From positions 1-41,660 of the IMG/VR virus record IMGVR_UViG_3300037246_000761: a stretch of 41,660 bases of DNA. One strand, 5' to 3'. This document shows positions 13,680 to 40,825 of this stretch, piece after piece. Every line of letters begins with the position of its first letter. The stretch's first letter is position 1. Source of the DNA: a virus. The notes under the pieces were generated by a model. It saw nothing but the letters and a program-made list of their open reading frames with translations. It did not search any database and was not told the origin of the DNA. The translations under genes and the position numbers were made by a program.

Positions 13680-15584
13680 TTAATCAACATCTTCATTTCT
13701 AACTGTGATGATTGTTTTCGGGGTATTTAAAGTTAAAATTATTTCTGGAGTTACATTTGAAATATTAATACTTAAAATATCTTCAGGTAAAACAATAGGA
13801 TCACCGTTAGATTTTATTAATGTTAAAATTACTTTACCTGACAAAATATCTTCTACTTCCCCTGTTGCGACAACAGCTGTTCCATTAACAATAGCAGTTT
13901 CTGCTTGGGGAGTACCACTACAAGAATTAGAAACTATTCCGTCTCCACTTGCAGTAGCGGTTTCTGCTTGTGGTGTTCCATCAGCTAATACAATTTCTAT
14001 AACTATTCCATCACCACTGGCAGTAGCGGTTTCAGCTTGTGGGGTTCCATCAGCTAAACTTGAAGTTATTCCATCTCCACTTGAAGTAGCAGTTTCTGCT
14101 TGGGGAGTACCTGAAGCAACTATCGGTCCTGTAGCTGTTCCTGTTCCACTGGCAGTCGCTGTCTCAGCTTGTGGTGTTCCATCAGCTAAACTTGAAACTA
14201 CCCCAGCTCCACTTGCAACAGCAGTATCTGCTTGTGGTGTTCCATCAGCTAAACTTGAAGTTATTCCGTCTCCACTTGAAGTAGCGGTTTCTGCTTGTGG
14301 TGTTCCATCTGCTAAACTTGATACTATACTATCACTGTTAGCAGTTGCTGTTTCTGCTTGTGGTATTCCTGAACCAGTTACTAAACCAGAAACTATAGCA
14401 ACCCCACTTACAGTAGCAGTTTCAGCTTGGGGAGTACCTGAACCAGAATTTGAAACCACACTATCACTACTGACAGTAGCAGTATCAGCTTGTGGTGTTC
14501 CATCAGCTAAACTTGAAGTTATTCCATCACCATTTGCAGTAGCAGTTTCAGCTTGGGGAGTACCTGAACCTGCACTGTCTACAACTATTCCAGTTCCGTT
14601 GACAGTTGCTGTCTCAGCTTGTGGGGTTCCGCTGCTAGAGTTTGAAACTACCCCATCACCACTTGAAGTAGCGGTTTCAGCTTGGGGAGTACCATCTGCT
14701 AAACTTGAAGTTATTCCGTCTCCACTTGAAGTAGCGGTTTCAGCTTGTGGGGTTCCATCAGCTAAACTTGAAGTTATTCCGTCTCCACTGGCAGTCGCTG
14801 TCTCAGCTTGTGGTGTTCCATCAGCTAAACTTGAAGTTATTCCGTCTCCACTTGAAGTAGCGGTTTCTGCTTGTGGTGTTCCATCTGCTAAACTTGAAGT
14901 TATTCCGTCTCCACTTGAAGTAGCGGTTTCAGCTTGGGGAGTACCTGACCCAGTAATTGGAGCTGCACCAGTTTCTTCAAGATAAATTAACGACCCCCAG
15001 GTTTCGTCATTTGCACCAGCCGATGTTGACAACACTGTACCTTCAGTTCCGGTTGCCGTTAATATTCGTGTAGCAGAACCTGCTGACATATCAGCACCTC
15101 CACCAGTAGCAACTTCAAAAGCACCTTGTTTTGTAAATGAGTTTGACCATGAATCACCACTAAAATCATCATCTTCTAAAGCACCACAAGCAATAGCAAT
15201 TGTATTAGCGATGTCAGTTAACGCGCCAGAAAAAGTCACAGAATTTGCAGCTGATACAGCAACGTCTTCAGCTGCGTTAACCGTTAAAGACGTACCGCTT
15301 AATTCATAAAACCATGCACATTGTTGAACAGCATTAGAAGATCCAATTGTAACTGCGGTTTCAGTACCATCAGACGTTTTACCAAAGAAAGAAACTAATC
15401 GTGAACCTTCAGTAAAATTTCTTAATAGTGAATAACCTGTTGGTGTTGTTACTGTACCTGACCCAGTACGACGCACAATAACGGCAACTAACGTATTATC
15501 GCTGGTTGCCGTTGCGCCAAGATTAACTGTGATCGATGATCCACGATTCGAATTTGATCCTACATTAACAACAGACTGAACCAT
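13680..15584 (-). CDS. Tail fibre-type repeat protein with seventeen repeats of about 21 residues
   Basis: 634 residues, AGGAG 9 nt before ATG 15584. Residues 1 to about 212 form a beta-rich, Thr/Ser/Gly-rich domain resembling phage receptor-binding or fibre heads. Then seventeen repeats with consensus G-T-P-Q-A-E-T-A-T-x-S-G-D-G-I follow, most ending T-S-S-L-A-D. A final stretch of about 57 residues (K-V-I-L-T-L-I-K...) is a separate small domain. Not collagen-like (no G-X-Y). Probably an extended, surface-exposed virion protein, placed with the fibre genes. Repeats differ at fixed positions, as expected from unequal recombination. Confidence 0.8.
   Translation of the reverse strand: MVQSVVNVGSNSNRGSSITVNLGATATSDNTLVAVIVRRTGSGTVTTPTGYSLLRNFTEGSRLVSFFGKTSDGTETAVTIGSSNAVQQCAWFYELSGTSLTVNAAEDVAVSAANSVTFSGALTDIANTIAIACGALEDDDFSGDSWSNSFTKQGAFEVATGGGADMSAGSATRILTATGTEGTVLSTSAGANDETWGSLIYLEETGAAPITGSGTPQAETATSSGDGITSSLADGTPQAETATSSGDGITSSLADGTPQAETATASGDGITSSLADGTPQAETATSSGDGITSSLADGTPQAETATSSGDGVVSNSSSGTPQAETATVNGTGIVVDSAGSGTPQAETATANGDGITSSLADGTPQADTATVSSDSVVSNSGSGTPQAETATVSGVAIVSGLVTGSGIPQAETATANSDSIVSSLADGTPQAETATSSGDGITSSLADGTPQADTAVASGAGVVSSLADGTPQAETATASGTGTATGPIVASGTPQAETATSSGDGITSSLADGTPQAETATASGDGIVIEIVLADGTPQAETATASGDGIVSNSCSGTPQAETAIVNGTAVVATGEVEDILSGKVILTLIKSNGDPIVLPEDILSINISNVTPEIILTLNTPKTIITVRNEDVD
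13848..14945 (-). repeat. Tandem array of about seventeen ~63-bp units within the fibre gene
   Basis: Each unit encodes G-T-P-Q-A-E-T-A plus about 13 variable residues. Units are mostly 63 bp, some 66 or 69. Several are near-identical (for example the four at 14690-14945), showing recent duplication. The array keeps the opposite strand open for 426 codons, which is a by-product of unit length divisible by three. Confidence 0.9.
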
Positions 15585-30652: not shown

Positions 30653-31075
30653 TTAAACACTATGCGGTGCTGCAATAGTTTGTGCAAGCATTCTGAATAT
30701 ATCACCATCGACAGCGCTTTCAAGAGCTACTCCGATCGCCATACTATCAGCAGCTAGTGCAGCTGCATTAGCTACCCCAGCAACTCGACCAGCTGTTACA
30801 TCAGGAACAATTAATTGTCCTGCAGTAATTGTTGCACCAGCTTTTACTGTTACAATACCTTGTAGCAAAACAACTGGAACATTTTGTCCATCAGTTGTTG
30901 CTGCACTATCAGGGTCTTCACCTAGCATACCGATAACTGTGTTAGCAACAGCAGTTGCTTTAATTACTTTACCGACATCAGAGTCGTCTTCTATTTGGAG
31001 GATTTCATGTAAATCTCCACGTAGATCTTCACCAGCTATCATATTAACTGATTGAATGTTTTCGAATGAAGCCAT
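30653..31075 (-). CDS. Capsid decoration protein (DUF2190-like)
   Basis: 140 residues, a Gly/Ala/Val-rich beta protein with L-L-Q-G-I-V-T-V-K-A-G-A-T-I near 69-82 and G-Q-L-I-V-P-D-V near 86. It resembles DUF2190/lambda D-type stabilising proteins. Immediately precedes the capsid gene (about 30 nt). Confidence 0.7.
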   Translation of the reverse strand: MASFENIQSVNMIAGEDLRGDLHEILQIEDDSDVGKVIKATAVANTVIGMLGEDPDSAATTDGQNVPVVLLQGIVTVKAGATITAGQLIVPDVTAGRVAGVANAAALAADSMAIGVALESAVDGDIFRMLAQTIAAPHSV

Positions 31076-31117
31076 TTCCTATACTCCTATATGTTAAGGT
31101 TGGCGATTAAAAATGGC

Positions 31118-31810
31118 TTAATTTAAAGCCTTTGCGTAAAGTTCTGATCCTTGATTAGTTTCAAGAACTTTAGTATATGCAACAGCATAAGTAACTTCAT
31201 GCTCAGTTGCATATTTTTTAGCGAGAGTATCAAGCTCTGCTTCTGGGGTACCATCAACAGGTTCACCACCTGCACCTAGAGTTTCATAAGCTTTACCCAT
31301 AGCAGTGTTTTGAGCTTTAAGAGATTTTAAAGCTTCTTCACGATCAACATCGTCTTTAATACTTTCAACAGATTTAAGCAAAGCCATATGAGTTTCAACT
31401 GAACCAGGAAGATTACTTAGATCATCTTCAGCACGTTTACGAAGATCAACCTCAGAAGCAGCTTTACGAAGTTTAGCATTTTCTTTTCGGTCAATATCAC
31501 CTTGCTTAGCTAGTTCAATCATACCAGCACCATCGCTTTTACGATACTCAACTCCAGAATCAGATTTATATATAACGGGGTTTTCATCTTCAGCATTTTT
31601 AATAGCTGCTTTCGCGATTAATTCACGATCGTCAGCTTCTTTTGCAAGGTAAGTTGTTTTATCATCATCTGACAGAGCGTCGTAATGTGATTTTTCAAGA
31701 GTACTAAGACCTGCCACTTTTTTGGAAATTTCCAATTCAGCTTTAAGTTCAGAGATTTCTTTATCAGCCGCTTTTTTAATATCTGCGGCAGTTTTTGTGT
31801 CTTTTGTCAT
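31118..31810 (-). CDS. Putative scaffold protein, short form from an internal start
   Basis: 230 residues in the same frame as the 417-residue protein, starting M-T-K-D-T-K-T at 31810. AGAGGAG lies 6 nt upstream, the strongest ribosome site in this gene, though it also encodes Glu-Glu of the long form. The product is a highly charged helical protein, as scaffolds are. This arrangement parallels lambda C/Nu3. Inferred, not proven. Confidence 0.5.
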   Translation of the reverse strand: MTKDTKTAADIKKAADKEISELKAELEISKKVAGLSTLEKSHYDALSDDDKTTYLAKEADDRELIAKAAIKNAEDENPVIYKSDSGVEYRKSDGAGMIELAKQGDIDRKENAKLRKAASEVDLRKRAEDDLSNLPGSVETHMALLKSVESIKDDVDREEALKSLKAQNTAMGKAYETLGAGGEPVDGTPEAELDTLAKKYATEHEVTYAVAYTKVLETNQGSELYAKALN

Positions 31811-32371
31811 ATCAGACTCCTCTTCATCAACACAAGTTATACCGTCTGCGACGGCGGCTTCAGCGAGTTTATCAAATAATTTTTCAAAATCGCTATTCTC
31901 TTCAAAAGTATTAACCCATTCAGGCTCTTCTTCAGATTTCTTTAAAATTTGTTTAGCATGTTCATGGCTTTCAATAAATAATTGTTTACTTATTTCATCA
32001 ATATCATGAGTATGGCCGTTTGCTTCACCAATAATTATCTCACCATCAACTTTCATTATCCATGGGTGAGTATGATTCTTTTCAGTAGTAGCCCCGGACC
32101 AGCTTGTTTCACCACCTGAAGAAAATCCTAACGCTTGGTTAGTTGACCAATCAAAATCTTTAATATTAATTCTATGAGCATGACTATCTTCAGATGTTGT
32201 TAAAATCATATCACCAAGAAACTTTGCAATACTATCTTCAAGATCAAAAGTATCACGTTTCATAATACGCATTGTCGCAGGAGCTTGTGCAGCTCGATCA
32301 ACCATAGAAATTTCAGAAATAGAGAACTTTCTCATAATCCGTTTTTTCTTTTTATCATCATGTTTTGGCAT
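31118..32371 (-). CDS. Capsid maturation/scaffold protein, long form
   Basis: 417 residues. N-terminus S-I-S-E-I-S-M-V-D-R-A-A-Q-A-P near 17-31 is typical of prohead protease substrates or XkdF-like proteins. A histidine-rich middle (S-H-A-H, N-H-T-H, G-H-T-H-D) follows; the C-terminal half is helical and charged, like a scaffold. An internal ATG (Met188) has a strong ribosome site, so a short form is likely. The clear protease-like gene is the neighbour at 33037. Confidence 0.7.
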   Translation of the reverse strand: MPKHDDKKKKRIMRKFSISEISMVDRAAQAPATMRIMKRDTFDLEDSIAKFLGDMILTTSEDSHAHRINIKDFDWSTNQALGFSSGGETSWSGATTEKNHTHPWIMKVDGEIIIGEANGHTHDIDEISKQLFIESHEHAKQILKKSEEEPEWVNTFEENSDFEKLFDKLAEAAVADGITCVDEEESDMTKDTKTAADIKKAADKEISELKAELEISKKVAGLSTLEKSHYDALSDDDKTTYLAKEADDRELIAKAAIKNAEDENPVIYKSDSGVEYRKSDGAGMIELAKQGDIDRKENAKLRKAASEVDLRKRAEDDLSNLPGSVETHMALLKSVESIKDDVDREEALKSLKAQNTAMGKAYETLGAGGEPVDGTPEAELDTLAKKYATEHEVTYAVAYTKVLETNQGSELYAKALN

Positions 32372-35647: not shown

Positions 35648-37113
35648 GCTTCATCTCCATCAACTTCTTGATTACTAGGGTCTAAATTTTGTTCAGCAGC
35701 AACGTTACTAGTTTGTTGTTCTCGGTTTAACATACGTCTCATTTCATCTTCAAGTTCAGAACGTTCTGATTGCTTTTCAAGATTAAGTAATGTCACACCT
35801 AACAATTCACGTATATCGTTAATGACCGGATCATCAATATCCAACGGAGCACCTGCTCTAGCAAGATCATCAAGTGCACCAGTGATTTGTTTAACATCGC
35901 GGAATTGAGCAGCTTCAGTTTGGAACTTAGGCATTAATTCTTTATCCCAACCATTAAGTTGGAAAATCGTTTCAATAAAGTCTTTATCAAACTGTTCTTC
36001 CAATTCGATTAAAACAGAGTCAATCACTAATGCAAAGTTTGCTGATTTATCTTCAGATAAAGATCTGCTGCCAGTTGTCGTTCCGAGCATTAAATGTTCA
36101 ACCCCGAATAATCGAGCAAGAGATTGAGTCTCACGTTCAATCGCAACATTTAATTCACTTTGACTATTACTAGTGCCTTTTACAAGTTCAAAATCCCATT
36201 GTCGTATAGCTGAAGGGGTTGCTTTCTCATCATCAGAACGATATGTCGCAGAGTCAAGTAACAGTCCAAGTTTAGGATTCTTGATATGGTTTTCAACAAT
36301 ATCTTTTAACCCTTTTTCAATTTTAATTTTTTCTGCTTCTTTAATTGATCCATTCTCAACAGCCGCTGATAATACTGAGAAAGGACCGCGGCCAATAGGA
36401 ACCCCACGTAGGTCTGTTTCGAACCCTATTCCTTCTAATTCTAAATAATAATCAACACGATCGTTTATAATTGATGCTTGCCTAAATACCCCAAGACCTT
36501 CTGGAGAATCGTTAATCGAGTCATCAACAAGATATACTAATTTCTCCCGATTAAGATATATCTCTCTGCTTGTTTGAGGAGACTGCTGAACAACCCCGAA
36601 GACAGTACCGCTTGAGTCAGTATCCCATTTTGTGATTGTTCTTTGTGCACGGGGTTCTATATCTTTCATACCGATAACATTATCTGCACGCTTCTTAGCT
36701 GTCCATTCTTGAATTGAGAAACCATAGAAACGATACATAGCTGCACGACGTACAACACGATGCCAAGGAGTTGTCATATCATCCATCATGTCTTCAATTA
36801 ATTTTGCTAACTCCAATGATTTAGGATCATCTGGATCAGATGGTTCTACTTTCCATTTAGATTTCGATAATATGTTCAAGAAATATCGAACACCTGTTGC
36901 GATGATCTCTGTATTTGCAAGCATGTCACTATATGTAACGTATTTCTTTGTCCCGCGAAGTTTAGATTGCTTTTCTTGTTCATCAACAAAGCCGCCATAT
37001 ATCGCAGTTCCTGAAACACCTTCAGTTTTAGTTGGTGATGGTTTTTTTCCTCTTAACATTGAGAACACTGAATCTAGAAACGTTTCTTGTTCTGAATTTT
37101 GTATATTAGCCAT
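35644..37113 (-). CDS. Portal protein (DUF935/Mu gp29-like)
   Basis: 489 residues. Y-R-F-Y-G-F-S-I-Q-E-W near 108-118, P-R-A-Q-R-T-I-T-K-W-D near 133-143, and a helical region I-K-I-E-K-G-L-K-D-I near 223 followed by T-R/S-R-S-L-S-E-D near 347. These recall DUF935-family portals. Overlaps the large terminase gene by 8 nt and precedes the Mu F-like gene, as usual. It would form the dodecameric DNA channel. Confidence 0.85.
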   Translation of the reverse strand: MANIQNSEQETFLDSVFSMLRGKKPSPTKTEGVSGTAIYGGFVDEQEKQSKLRGTKKYVTYSDMLANTEIIATGVRYFLNILSKSKWKVEPSDPDDPKSLELAKLIEDMMDDMTTPWHRVVRRAAMYRFYGFSIQEWTAKKRADNVIGMKDIEPRAQRTITKWDTDSSGTVFGVVQQSPQTSREIYLNREKLVYLVDDSINDSPEGLGVFRQASIINDRVDYYLELEGIGFETDLRGVPIGRGPFSVLSAAVENGSIKEAEKIKIEKGLKDIVENHIKNPKLGLLLDSATYRSDDEKATPSAIRQWDFELVKGTSNSQSELNVAIERETQSLARLFGVEHLMLGTTTGSRSLSEDKSANFALVIDSVLIELEEQFDKDFIETIFQLNGWDKELMPKFQTEAAQFRDVKQITGALDDLARAGAPLDIDDPVINDIRELLGVTLLNLEKQSERSELEDEMRRMLNREQQTSNVAAEQNLDPSNQEVDGDEA

Positions 37114-38794
37114 GTCCTTGTCCTACTACAACTGGTCCCACTGGAATTTGATCTGGTTTCTTTAAAAGTAATCGAGCGAATGCTCGTGATGCTGCGTCGA
37201 TTTGATCAAGGAATTCTCCAGCTGGGAATACAGCAGCTTCATTAATAAATGTATCGTTCCAATCAGCTCTTAATATATAAACATTACCTGACTCTGCTTG
37301 TGCAGCTAGCGGTTTTGCTCTATCTTCTTTTGATCCTGACTCAGTTGAATGTCGCATTCTATATCCGATTAACAATTTAGCAAACGCTGATATCTGACTC
37401 TTACCTGCTTGGCCTGGGTCTTGTGGTAAATCTTGTTCAATATTGTACCCATCACGCTCAGCAGCTTTCTTTAAATTCGTATTCACTATCCCTGGCGTCC
37501 ATTGGCCACGAACTACATCCATTATAACTATATCTTCATCAATTGTAATCCCCATTTTTAATCCAACTGTAAATGCAGACTTTTTATCTTTAGATGATGC
37601 AAGGTCCCAGCCACGAACTACTTTCCGCATTTTACCTAATTCATTAAGACTGTCAATGATTGTGAAATCATTTTTCTGGAACATACCACCACCACGAGGA
37701 GCTGGTCGTTGTTGTAATTGACCGGCCTCAGCATAAGTACCGCCCCAAGATCGTAATGCCTTTTTAAGATCATCTAAAGATTCTTCTGGAAATCTAATAG
37801 GGTCAAGTAGTTCACCATCTTCAGTTCTAGGATCAACGTTATATTTAACAGCTTCTTGAGTAGCGATTTGATTTCCTGGTTTATAAGGAACCCAGCTCTT
37901 TGTCATATGATTAAAGTAAACTGTTTCTGGCTTTACGTCCATATATGATGGTTTAACTACTGAATAACATCTACGTTCTGGTTCAAACTCCATTGGCAGC
38001 ATTAAATGTTCATACCCCAGTTCTTCTGTTAATATAAGTCCTGCAACATCACGCTCATGCACTCTTTGCATTATTATAATAATAGCTGACTCATTTTGTT
38101 TGTTTAATCGAGTAGGGACAGTTTCTGCGAATGTTTGAAGTACATCTTCCCTTTGAACATCACTATCCGCACCTTTAACAGAATGAGGATCATCTCCGAT
38201 AACCCTGTCTCCCCGTTTACCTGTCATACTTTCTGCCGCACATGATTGACGCCAACCTGTTTTATCATTCTCATAATATATTTTAGCATTCTGATCGCCT
38301 TTGAACATGAATTCATGGCCCCAGTTTTCCTGATACCATTCAGAATTAATTAAATCACGGCAACGGACATTATCTCTAGTAGCAAGACCTTGTTCATGAG
38401 CCCAACTAATAAAACGAAGATGAGGCATGTTCATAGGACCCCATTCCCATGCTGGCCAGAACACATTTACAGTCATAGACTTTGTGCATCCTGGAGGTAC
38501 TGTGATTAGGAGTCGTTTGATATGACCATACGATACTGCTTGGAGATGATCACATATAGCTGACACACCCCAGTTTGCAACAAACTTAGTAGCAGGTTCA
38601 AGTGCATGCCAACCTTGTTTCATGAATTCAATTAATGAGTCCTCAGCTGCTAATTTATTCAATTCTCTGAGATATGGAACGGGGTTTTGGAGTGCTGCTT
38701 GAAGGATATCTTCTTTCTTTGCAAGATACTCTAACTGGTCTTCAGTATAGTTTGTTGTGTCAGGTCGTAGGGATGAGATATCGACATGGGTCAT
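37106..38794 (-). CDS. terL-like: Terminase large subunit
   Basis: 562 residues. ATPase Walker A variant P-P-G-C-T-K-S at 100-106 (a T replaces the usual G, as in a known branch of terminases), an R-G-D-R-V-I-G-D-D-P-H block that carries the Walker B-region acidic residues near 195-206, I-I-I-I-M-Q-R-V-H-E-R near 239, and the nuclease start V-R-G-W-D-L-A-S-S-K near 394. Packages DNA with the small terminase. Starts directly after the DUF6527-like gene stop. Confidence 0.95.
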   Translation of the reverse strand: MTHVDISSLRPDTTNYTEDQLEYLAKKEDILQAALQNPVPYLRELNKLAAEDSLIEFMKQGWHALEPATKFVANWGVSAICDHLQAVSYGHIKRLLITVPPGCTKSMTVNVFWPAWEWGPMNMPHLRFISWAHEQGLATRDNVRCRDLINSEWYQENWGHEFMFKGDQNAKIYYENDKTGWRQSCAAESMTGKRGDRVIGDDPHSVKGADSDVQREDVLQTFAETVPTRLNKQNESAIIIIMQRVHERDVAGLILTEELGYEHLMLPMEFEPERRCYSVVKPSYMDVKPETVYFNHMTKSWVPYKPGNQIATQEAVKYNVDPRTEDGELLDPIRFPEESLDDLKKALRSWGGTYAEAGQLQQRPAPRGGGMFQKNDFTIIDSLNELGKMRKVVRGWDLASSKDKKSAFTVGLKMGITIDEDIVIMDVVRGQWTPGIVNTNLKKAAERDGYNIEQDLPQDPGQAGKSQISAFAKLLIGYRMRHSTESGSKEDRAKPLAAQAESGNVYILRADWNDTFINEAAVFPAGEFLDQIDAASRAFARLLLKKPDQIPVGPVVVGQGHG

Positions 38795-39106: not shown

Positions 39107-39225
39107 TATATAAGCGGCGGAACATTATTACCATAACGTACTATACATATAATTATTATACCCCATAATATAATACCAAATGGTAACCATATCATTAAAG
39201 ACTTAAATATATCAATGTTATTCAT
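39106..39225 (-). CDS. Very small single-span membrane protein, 39 residues
   Basis: ATG at 39225-39223 overlaps the small-terminase stop (TGA 39227-39225), and its TAA overlaps the next ATG. Hydrophobic stretch L-P-F-G-I-I-L-W-G-I-I-I-I-C at about 14-27. The exact fit between two genes with overlaps at both ends strongly suggests translation, at least as a coupling bridge. Confidence 0.6.
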   Translation of the reverse strand: MNNIDIFKSLMIWLPFGIILWGIIIICIVRYGNNVPPLI

Positions 39226-39758
39226 CATTCATCCTTTACCGGTTCAATTGTTTCCATATCTTCTTTAGGTGCTGTCGCATTCAAAAACATTCGAAGATTT
39301 TCACGATCATCATTCGTCATCGCTTTAACATCAGTTACATGACGATGAACTATTTCGCCTTTAATAGTTGTTGTCTGTTCGATTGAATGATGGTTTTTAA
39401 ATTCAGATAATTTAGCTTTAGCAAGAGTCAACAGAACACTGTTATCTATTTTAGTAATCCAATCCCCTGTTAGACGTCCTTGAAATGTTAATGGAACATC
39501 ATACCCATCAATACCATGTTTAATAATCTTTTCATAAATGCGATCAAGATGAGCTTCAAGTGCTTCTTCTTCTGCTTGAGCAAAATCAGGATTACGATTA
39601 CGATGATCAATGATTGTGTTAATACTTACACCAGCTGCTTTTGCTGCAAGTCCTTTTCTTCCGTTTTTTGTATATTCTTTTAAATATCTTCTTCGTCGTA
39701 CTGCATCGAATTTAATAGATGCAACTGGGATGATAACTAATGCGGTTGATTGAGACAT
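39225..39758 (-). CDS. terS-like: Terminase small subunit
   Basis: 177 residues. Basic N-terminal helix-turn-helix (R-R-R-R-Y-L-K-E-Y, then K-A-A-G-V-S-I-N-T-I near 40-49) followed by A-E-E-E-A-L-E-A-H-L and a helical C-terminal domain. Matches the design of small terminases that recognise the packaging site. First gene of the packaging-head operon; a promoter of the GGAAAG family lies upstream (39815-39843). Its recognised site is not identified. Confidence 0.75.
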   Translation of the reverse strand: MSQSTALVIIPVASIKFDAVRRRRYLKEYTKNGRKGLAAKAAGVSINTIIDHRNRNPDFAQAEEEALEAHLDRIYEKIIKHGIDGYDVPLTFQGRLTGDWITKIDNSVLLTLAKAKLSEFKNHHSIEQTTTIKGEIVHRHVTDVKAMTNDDRENLRMFLNATAPKEDMETIEPVKDE

Positions 39759-39814: not shown

Positions 39815-39843
39815 AAAGTACCATCTTTCCCTAGCTATGTAAA
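39815..39843 (-). promoter_or_regulatory. Fourth GGAAAG-family promoter, driving the terminase operon
   Basis: Reading leftwards: TTTACA (39843-39838), a 17-bp spacer with TAGCTAGGGAAAGATGG, and TACTTT (39820-39815). The TTTACATA start, GGAAAG core and spacing match the left-arm promoters at 4843, 6002 and 6933; the -10 is weak. It overlaps the end of the nuclease gene. Confidence 0.5.
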
Positions 39844-40292
39844 TCGTTTTTGTTATTTTGATCTCTGTATATTTGCAGTAGAGAGCTTATGAGGTGCCAG
39901 AAATCCTTCATCTGAACTTCATAGTCCGGGGGTGGAATAGGTAAAATTTTGCTTTTTATGTCCTCGCGATCAACGATCATACGAATACTTTTCTCTGCTT
40001 TCCATATTTTTACACCATCTTTAAACTCTACAATAAATAATGACATCGCACCAACGTTTTGCCATTTCTGAAGATTAACAGCTTGCGGTCCTATTAACTT
40101 ATAAGGAAATTTAGACAGTTTACAGTCCTCCCAATTCCCAGGAACATATTTTAATTCCCAAACTAACATTACATGTCGAACTAACCCAAGCACATCTGCA
40201 AACCCACTTTTCCCTTTAACCTCAATTCGCTCCAGTTTACCGGGGATTTTGAAGGAATTTTTGATTTTCTTCCAAGTCTTCGATTCAGACAT
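39831..40292 (-). CDS. PD-(D/E)XK-type nuclease (VRR-NUC/resolvase-like)
   Basis: 153 residues from ATG 40292, 7 nt after GGAG (ATG 40295 is too near). Core: G-F-A-D33-V-L-G-L, then V-W-E46-L-K48-Y, i.e. D-x12-E-x-K, with upstream Glu24. A later G-P-Q-A-V-N-L-Q-K-W block is typical of these small phage nucleases. Possible Holliday-junction or replication-linked endonuclease. First gene after the TGTACA array. Confidence 0.75.
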   Translation of the reverse strand: MSESKTWKKIKNSFKIPGKLERIEVKGKSGFADVLGLVRHVMLVWELKYVPGNWEDCKLSKFPYKLIGPQAVNLQKWQNVGAMSLFIVEFKDGVKIWKAEKSIRMIVDREDIKSKILPIPPPDYEVQMKDFWHLISSLLQIYRDQNNKNDLHS

Positions 40293-40340
40293 CATTTTTC
40301 TCCGTTTTCATCCTAATTTCAGCAGTCCCAAACTTTCTAG

Positions 40341-40591
40341 TGTACACTGTGTACACCTAAATCCCTGGCACTATTACAATGTATACTATTTGGTATATAT
40401 ATCCCATATATACCCTTTTTTAGCATATTCTATATAGTTACTATATTATAGTGTACAGTTGTACAGTTATATATAACTATATAATAATAAACCCGTTTCT
40501 GCTGTACAAGATGATGTACAAGCAGTTTTTCGTAAATGTACAGTTGTACACGGTGTACAGTTTTCACAAAATAGGTGTACAGTTGTGTACA
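40341..40591. repeat. Array of eleven TGTACA palindromes, candidate origin or operator region
   Basis: TGTACA starts at 40341, 40350, 40452, 40460, 40503, 40515, 40537, 40545, 40554, 40576 and 40586. Within groups the spacing is 8-12 bp, between groups 22, 22, 43 and 102 bp, roughly multiples of one helical turn. TGTACAGTTGTACA occurs twice, with a 2-nt-longer variant at 40576. An AT-rich stretch (40376-40495) lies among the sites. Looks like iterons with an unwinding element, or a cooperative operator upstream of the late genes. Confidence 0.85.
40392..40420 (+). terminator. Possible + strand intrinsic terminator / dyad in the control region
   Basis: GGTATATAT-atccc-ATATATACC (40392-40414) is a perfect 9-bp inverted repeat followed by CTTTTTT. 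It would act on + strand transcripts, although neighbouring genes are on the - strand. Could equally be part of an origin or operator. Confidence 0.35.
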
Positions 40592-40651
40592 GTAGTTTTT
40601 TCATCATAATTAAAAATCCTTTAAAATTCACAATTTCCCCGCTAATTTAAG

Positions 40652-40825
40652 TTATTTCTTCCTAAAATCACTATATCGAAATAACGATAATAATTTCCTT
40701 AAAACATCAGTTTCTTTATGTGGAAGTGCTTTAGCTATCTCTGGAATTGATTTCGATTTATAATTTTCAGTTAAATATTTTACTTGATTTGCTGTCCAAA
40801 CAATATTTAATGTATAACTTTCCAT
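40652..40825 (-). CDS. Small helix-turn-helix (Myb/SANT/GcrA-like) DNA-binding protein
   Basis: 57 residues from ATG 40825 with AGAGGA upstream. V-W-T-A-N-Q-V-K-Y-L-T near 9-19, then I-P-E-I-A-K-A-L near 28-35 and a third helix T-D-V-L-R-K-L-L near 40-47. This W-T...L...I-A-x-x-L plan is that of Myb/SANT or GcrA-type HTH modules. It ends 61 bp from the last TGTACA site and is a natural candidate to bind it, though this is inference. Confidence 0.6.
   Translation of the reverse strand: MESYTLNIVWTANQVKYLTENYKSKSIPEIAKALPHKETDVLRKLLSLFRYSDFRKK

Follow-up and report, generated by a model that had tools for sequence, protein, structure and literature searches.

The pac site of phage P1 is made up of repeated palindromic hexamers of the TGATCA type, which are positioned on two sides, bound by the small terminase and linked to the gene for that protein (terS). 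Replication origins with a comparable use of short repeats have been described in PICIs, where two sets of iterons always flank an AT-rich region and the whole is found directly 3' of the initiator gene (PMC6092414). A third design is that of pRN1, a PrimPol-SF3 replicon in which a large stem-loop is required for replication; similar stem-loops have been reported in several phages (PMC4234260).

The locus described here is located in an IMG/VR virus record, the whole stretch of which (41,660 bases, hereafter the window) was analysed. The contig is devoid of end repeats and may represent a fragment of a genome. Its left part contains rightward genes for thymidylate synthase, a clamp-like protein, a family A DNA polymerase, dCMP deaminase and an SNF2-type helicase. 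A leftward structural operon fills the sequence from ∼40.3 kb down to 10.6 kb, with terS, the gene for a DUF6527 protein and the gene for the large terminase subunit (terL) near its head. With its structural genes, the carrier looks like a tailed phage rather than a satellite. The largest intergenic gap of the contig (40296–40651; 356 bp, 31% GC) is bounded by two minus-strand ORFs, 40652–40825 (small HTH protein) and 39831–40295 (nuclease-like protein), and holds an array of TGTACA hexamers. Between the array and terS there is only the nuclease-like gene, and 583 bp separate the terS start from the inner array edge; the repeated hexamer is thus linked to terS. The features are as follows (parts of the element are unstranded).

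40337–40595, unstranded: whole element, 11 TGTACA palindromes within one giant imperfect inverted repeat (folding, pairing and self-complementarity scan)
40337–40359, unstranded: left outer arm CTAGTGTACACTGTGTACACCTA with sites 1 and 2; pairs with 40572–40595 (five probed pairs, pair probabilities 0.97–1.00)
40365–40386, unstranded: left inner arm with the degenerate TGTATA (40380); pairs with 40537–40561
40392–40414, unstranded: AT-rich hairpin GGTATATATATCCCATATATACC (fold)
40422–40493, unstranded: long AT-rich hairpin around sites 3 and 4 (40452, 40460), together with the stretch to its left a candidate unwinding region (fold)
40499–40525, unstranded: hairpin CTGCTGTACA...TGTACAAGCAG with sites 5 and 6 (fold)
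40537–40561, unstranded: right inner arm with sites 7, 8 and 9; pairs with 40365–40386
40572–40595, unstranded: right outer arm TAGGTGTACAGTTGTGTACAGTAG with sites 10 and 11; pairs with the left outer arm
40652–40825, minus strand: 57-aa HTH-like ORF, the neighbour on the other side of the element (weak PHROG matches to transcriptional regulators, E 0.002)
39831–40295, minus strand: nuclease-like ORF, the first gene downstream of the element (weak PHROG matches to phrog_2165, E 2.6e-6, and to phrog_843, Holliday junction resolvase, E 0.009)
39225–39758, minus strand: terS (phrog_4044, E 1.8e-24)
37106–38794, minus strand: terL (Terminase_6C, phrog_38)

Exact copies of TGTACA start at positions 40341, 40350, 40452, 40460, 40503, 40515, 40537, 40545, 40554, 40576 and 40586 (offsets 0, 9, 111, 119, 162, 174, 196, 204, 213, 235 and 245), and a one-mismatch scan added a twelfth near-copy, TGTATA, at 40380. 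Two sites are followed by ∼140 bp of mostly A+T with one more pair inside, and then by seven sites. From the base composition of the gap itself 0.11 copies would be expected; the whole contig has 18, seven of which fall outside the array, and the array is by far its densest hexamer cluster. A preliminary description of the locus had reported eleven copies in a non-coding, AT-rich region (40341–40591), and all 11 were indeed located, against ∼0.1 expected, in a gap of 31% GC. It had also described the spacings as close to whole helical turns. When a period of 10.5 bp was applied, the last nine sites displayed some phasing (resultant length 0.73, p 0.02; p 0.06 with a fitted period), but the full set did not (resultant length 0.43, p 0.19), and spacings of 8, 9 and 12 bp are not whole turns. 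Helical phasing of the sites is weak and partial at best. Readings of the array as LexA boxes (TGT-N8-ACA) or as P2 Ogr-type sites (TGT-N12-ACA) were rejected, since the former matches only two pairs 8 bp apart and the latter only one pair 12 bp apart.

Two further observations concern the contig. A minus-strand frame runs through the array (40467–40631), with AAAGGA nine bases before ATGATG, and would encode a 46-aa peptide that is rich in Cys and Thr because TGTACA in frame reads Cys-Thr; it is probably not a gene. Several other short-repeat clusters of the contig stem from a repeated ADGTPQAETATSSGDGITSSL unit in a tail-region protein (13680–15584).

The long-range symmetry of 40337–40595 is absent from the preliminary description, which saw the sites alone. 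In the outer arms, 40337–40347 pairs with 40585–40595 and 40350–40359 with 40572–40581. As TGTACA is self-complementary, any two copies can pair, and shuffling was therefore confined to the bases between sites. The fold was superior to that of such TGTACA-preserving shuffles (z −2.9 on the plus strand and −4.4 on the minus strand), none of the 200 being as good. The 280-bp stretch 40321–40600 is the most self-complementary of the contig, 5.3 SD off the trend with GC content. The second most self-complementary stretch, 30941–31360 (−4.0 and −3.7 SD), is found around the junction of the ORFs 30653–31075 and 31118–32371. The element thus contains a large stem-loop, as do the stem-loop origins of PrimPol-SF3 replicons (pRN1/BIP-1 type).

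In order to find relatives, IMG/VR was searched with the nuclease-like ORF and terS; no match was obtained and close relatives were not found. In a panel of 28 records, drawn mainly from relatives of TerL, capsid and polymerase, only two contained even one TGTACA pair, and neither had an array. A scan of viral contigs for two TGTACA pairs ∼100 bp apart retrieved nine contigs, compared with one for the reversed palindrome ACATGT, which served as control. One of the nine, IMGVR_UViG_3300043256_000135 (76,449 bp; hereafter G076), shares with the window phage 58% identity in the capsid protein, 45% in the portal, 43% in TerL and 33% in the polymerase, and is, judging from these proteins, a distant relative.

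G076 contains 34 copies of TGTACA, 16 of which fall into two clusters. Cluster B (73644–73930) has eight sites, spaced by 23, 22, 60, 77, 59, 22 and 23 bp, within a giant imperfect palindrome of ∼310 bp, an arm of which measures 37 bp; its fold reached z −9.7 and, on the transcribed strand, −11.3. It begins ∼200 bp upstream of the directly adjacent terS, the product of which matches phrog_4044, as does that of the window gene. Cluster A (35845–36107; L299:246–508), likewise a TGTACA inverted-repeat element, is situated past the end of the tail operon, ∼200 bp upstream of the SNF2 helicase gene, and the two clusters bracket the late operon. Nowhere else in G076 is self-complementarity as high as in clusters B and A, which overall are not AT-rich. 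The sequence between the sites differs from that of the window, while motif and locus recur: the two phages have in common the motif, the symmetry and the place upstream of terS. Cluster A provided the TGTACA pattern through which G076 was found, so that independent evidence comes from the kinship and from cluster B near terS, but not from the motif. An array at the same locus in related phages, to which the preliminary description had looked, was therefore found in one distant relative, with eight TGTACA upstream of terS, but not across the 28-record panel.

Two readings can be weighed on these data. According to the first, the fold would belong to a structured RNA in the late-operon leader, an antitermination or processing element. 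It is consistent with the better fold on the transcribed minus strand (z −4.4 versus −2.9 in the window, −11.3 versus −9.7 in cluster B of G076). However, palindromes in the DNA account for the fold on both strands, the exactness with which TGTACA is kept is not required of an RNA, and an Rfam search of the element returned no family; we regard an RNA function as very improbable. According to the second, the element would be an inserted MITE, a small transposable element with inverted repeats, in line with its terminal inverted repeats and with 14-bp near-direct repeats at 40305–40318 and 40598–40611. The target duplication at the ends is, however, not convincing, and there is no second copy in the contig. 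None was found in the phage and plasmid collections either, where blastn with the region returned short matches only and no real homologue. Furthermore, motif and locus recur in the distant relative with other sequence between the sites. Such an insertion is hardly credible.

The neighbourhood of terS points to a different possibility, which the preliminary description had also raised, namely a packaging initiation site at which the small terminase would bind the TGTACA hexamers and the large terminase would cut nearby, with the repeated TGATCA-type hexamers of P1 pac as precedent. In both phages the element is upstream of terS, immediately so in G076 and separated from it by the nuclease gene in the window. 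Among the matches listed, TGTACA arrays were also present near confirmed terminase genes: 0.4 kb (L148), 0.85 kb (L300) and 1.6 kb (L086) upstream of terS and, in related unclassified viral contigs, between terS and terL (L302:10232–10499) or beside terL (L301:176–454). Three more of the matches listed have arrays upstream of TerL (L131, L103 and L147). All of these are example loci and not a background-matched enrichment. In addition, relatives carry non-coding arrays of other short motifs upstream of terS (TCCGGA/TAGGCCC in L275:4569–5013, TAGTGGA in L283:1844–2110 and tandem TGATCA in L251:106–202), as would be shown by co-evolving TerS sites. In L010 and L012, what looked like 7-mer clusters upstream of TerL falls inside reading frames and was discarded.

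Several observations speak against packaging. The second element of G076 is 38 kb off, near SNF2; same-motif arrays occur at replication genes of mobile elements (see below); and the HTH regions of TerS proteins from TGTACA phages differ by eye. Neither the related Shewanella phage S0112 nor G010 and G020 have an array upstream of TerL. We also know of no pac site with a giant inverted repeat. This last feature is unevenly distributed among the terminase-proximal arrays: an inverted-repeat excess is seen in L148, less so in L300, and not clearly in L301, L302, L086 or L131. It groups the window with both clusters of G076 and with L148, L264, L265 and L112, apart from the plain arrays. Taken together, a packaging site seems rather unlikely, though it deserves consideration.

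Regulation of transcription, likewise raised in the preliminary description, offers another explanation of the same position. A phage regulator bound cooperatively to TGTACA would control the late operon headed by terS and, in the case of G076, also the operon led by SNF2. An HTH gene is adjacent, the minus-strand operon has its first ORF 42 bp downstream of the edge of the element, and both arrays of G076 are ∼200 bp upstream of operon starts. An operator does not, however, require extended complementarity between its sites, the arrays at VapE and DUF927 genes are 3' of the gene and not upstream of it, and no significant promoter excess was detected at the element. We consider an operator unlikely.

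Arrays of this motif also occur at replication genes. A scan of genomes for two TGTACA pairs 205–235 bp apart revealed a Butyricicoccus contig (L264) with 11 TGTACA at offsets 0, 9, 110, 120, 216, 238, 249, 259, 299, 320 and 341; the middle pair (110, 120) was outside the search pattern, yet is near 111 and 119 of the window. This array starts 68 bp past the 3' end of a gene for a VapE primase-helicase. The Butyricicoccus genome (G070) has three VapE genes (L264, L269 and L270), each followed within 38–68 bp by its own dense iteron array: GTGTACA (11 copies), GCGTCTACG (10–12 copies) and CTGTACTCA (13–15 copies), the latter two arrays, with iterons different from that of L264, being 38–58 bp past the 3' ends. 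In all three, iteron pairs or clusters are split by AT-rich DNA and form strongly self-complementary inverted repeats. An Oscillochloris contig (L265) contains 15 TGTACA starting 20 bp past a DUF927 primase-helicase gene. With TGTACA fixed in the shuffles, the inverted-repeat excess amounted to z −4.7 to −6.0 in L264 and −6 to −8 in L265. Phage G075 has a replication module that includes a PriCT_1/DUF5906 primase-helicase and, beside SSB, 16 TGTACA; the array of L112 precedes an 891-aa protein that is PrimPol-like by eye and has no Pfam match.

Other TGTACA clusters were set aside, either as tandem repeats with a regular spacing of 18–24 bp (L098, L138, L180, L187 and L194, the first four devoid of inverted-repeat excess) or as coding repeats inside reading frames (L119 and L303). 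In Lactiplantibacillus plasmids (L267:2359–2548 and L268), to which the short plasmid matches of the blastn search had led, a TGTACA cluster immediately precedes a ParA/DUF5388 operon; it displays an inverted-repeat excess in L267 and is possibly a plasmid centromere or origin.

Because the inverted-repeat group includes L264 and L265, at the 3' ends of primase-helicase genes, the balance tips towards replication. We tentatively favour, at somewhat less than even confidence, the view that the element is an iteron and inverted-repeat replication origin for a primase-helicase of the VapE/DUF5906/PrimPol family. Relatives encode such initiators: an 807-aa DUF5906 and VapE-like protein in G076, Prim-Pol+PriCT_2+DUF5906 in G011, DUF5906 in G015 and an NrS-1-like primase in Shewanella phage S0112. 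In G076, moreover, an element of this kind occupies the corresponding locus, and the primase gene is not accompanied by a TGTACA array.

Other facts count against an origin. Searches of the contig for VapE, DUF5906, DUF927 and Prim-Pol domains were all negative, and the element, flanked by the HTH and nuclease-like ORFs, is not 3' of an initiator (pri/rep) gene, unlike PICI origins; as no initiator was detected in the contig, membership in the PICI-origin class cannot be claimed. In G076 a long distance separates the primase gene (19.3–21.8 kb) from the two elements (35.8 and 73.6 kb), which are not AT-rich overall. Among the matches listed, TGTACA arrays adjoin terS or terL in unrelated phages, a position not to be expected if they were origins. 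The iteron origin with an AT-rich unwinding element, one of the proposals of the preliminary description, stands as the favoured reading, given the near-identical TGTACA layout 68 bp 3' of a VapE gene and the PICI analogue, but it lacks an initiator in the contig. The GC skew around the array, which had been put forward as a check, tracks gene direction and provides no independent origin signal. Literature searches on TGTACA as iteron or phage origin yielded nothing relevant.

If the element is an origin, an initiator, probably encoded in the part of the genome missing from the contig, would bind the TGTACA iterons, which are arranged as two copies at one edge, a pair within the AT-rich middle and seven copies at the opposite side. 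The intervening DNA would then melt, a step to which the long inverted repeat may contribute by being extruded, and would be the place where helicase and primase are loaded. An element with two purposes, conserved in the phage clade, may also be envisaged: one TGTACA palindrome at the head of the late operon would mark both the origin and the start of packaging; in G076 the opposite end of that operon has a second copy. Initiator and terminase would compete for the site or hand it over. We think this improbable.

Sequence rarely reveals the replication origin or the packaging site of an uncultured tailed phage. Short palindromic iterons inside a giant inverted repeat make a recognisable signature, and this came up independently next to primase-helicases of the VapE and DUF927 types and upstream of terS. 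Should these loci be origins, the PICI-like origin design would reach tailed phages, and this could help to explain the exchange of replication and terS modules between satellites and phages.

The preliminary description knew of no described phage element with this exact structure, which is too strong a statement, as PICI-type origins provide a published analogue and the P1 pac hexamers another. In PICI/SaPI origins, as in the element, an AT-rich stretch separates two sets of short iterons, and terS can also sit downstream in the same direction. The element differs in the lack of an initiator gene directly upstream, in having iterons that are exact palindromes and are enclosed as a whole in a giant inverted repeat, and in its carrier, which with its structural genes resembles a tailed phage rather than a satellite. 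The three Butyricicoccus arrays, known from sequence alone, resemble it in their iteron pairs or clusters split by AT-rich DNA and in their strong inverted repeats, L264 having the identical motif, also in 11 copies; they are, however, directly at the 3' end of VapE genes, and genome and flanks are unrelated. With the pRN1-type origin the element shares a large inverted repeat, needed in pRN1 by the PrimPol-helicase, but in pRN1 this is a single stem-loop of ∼100 bp and no iteron array is reported as origin. P1 pac similarly has several palindromic hexamers linked to the small terminase gene, whereas the element has a different hexamer, includes no Dam site and forms a giant inverted repeat, and its kind occurs twice in G076.
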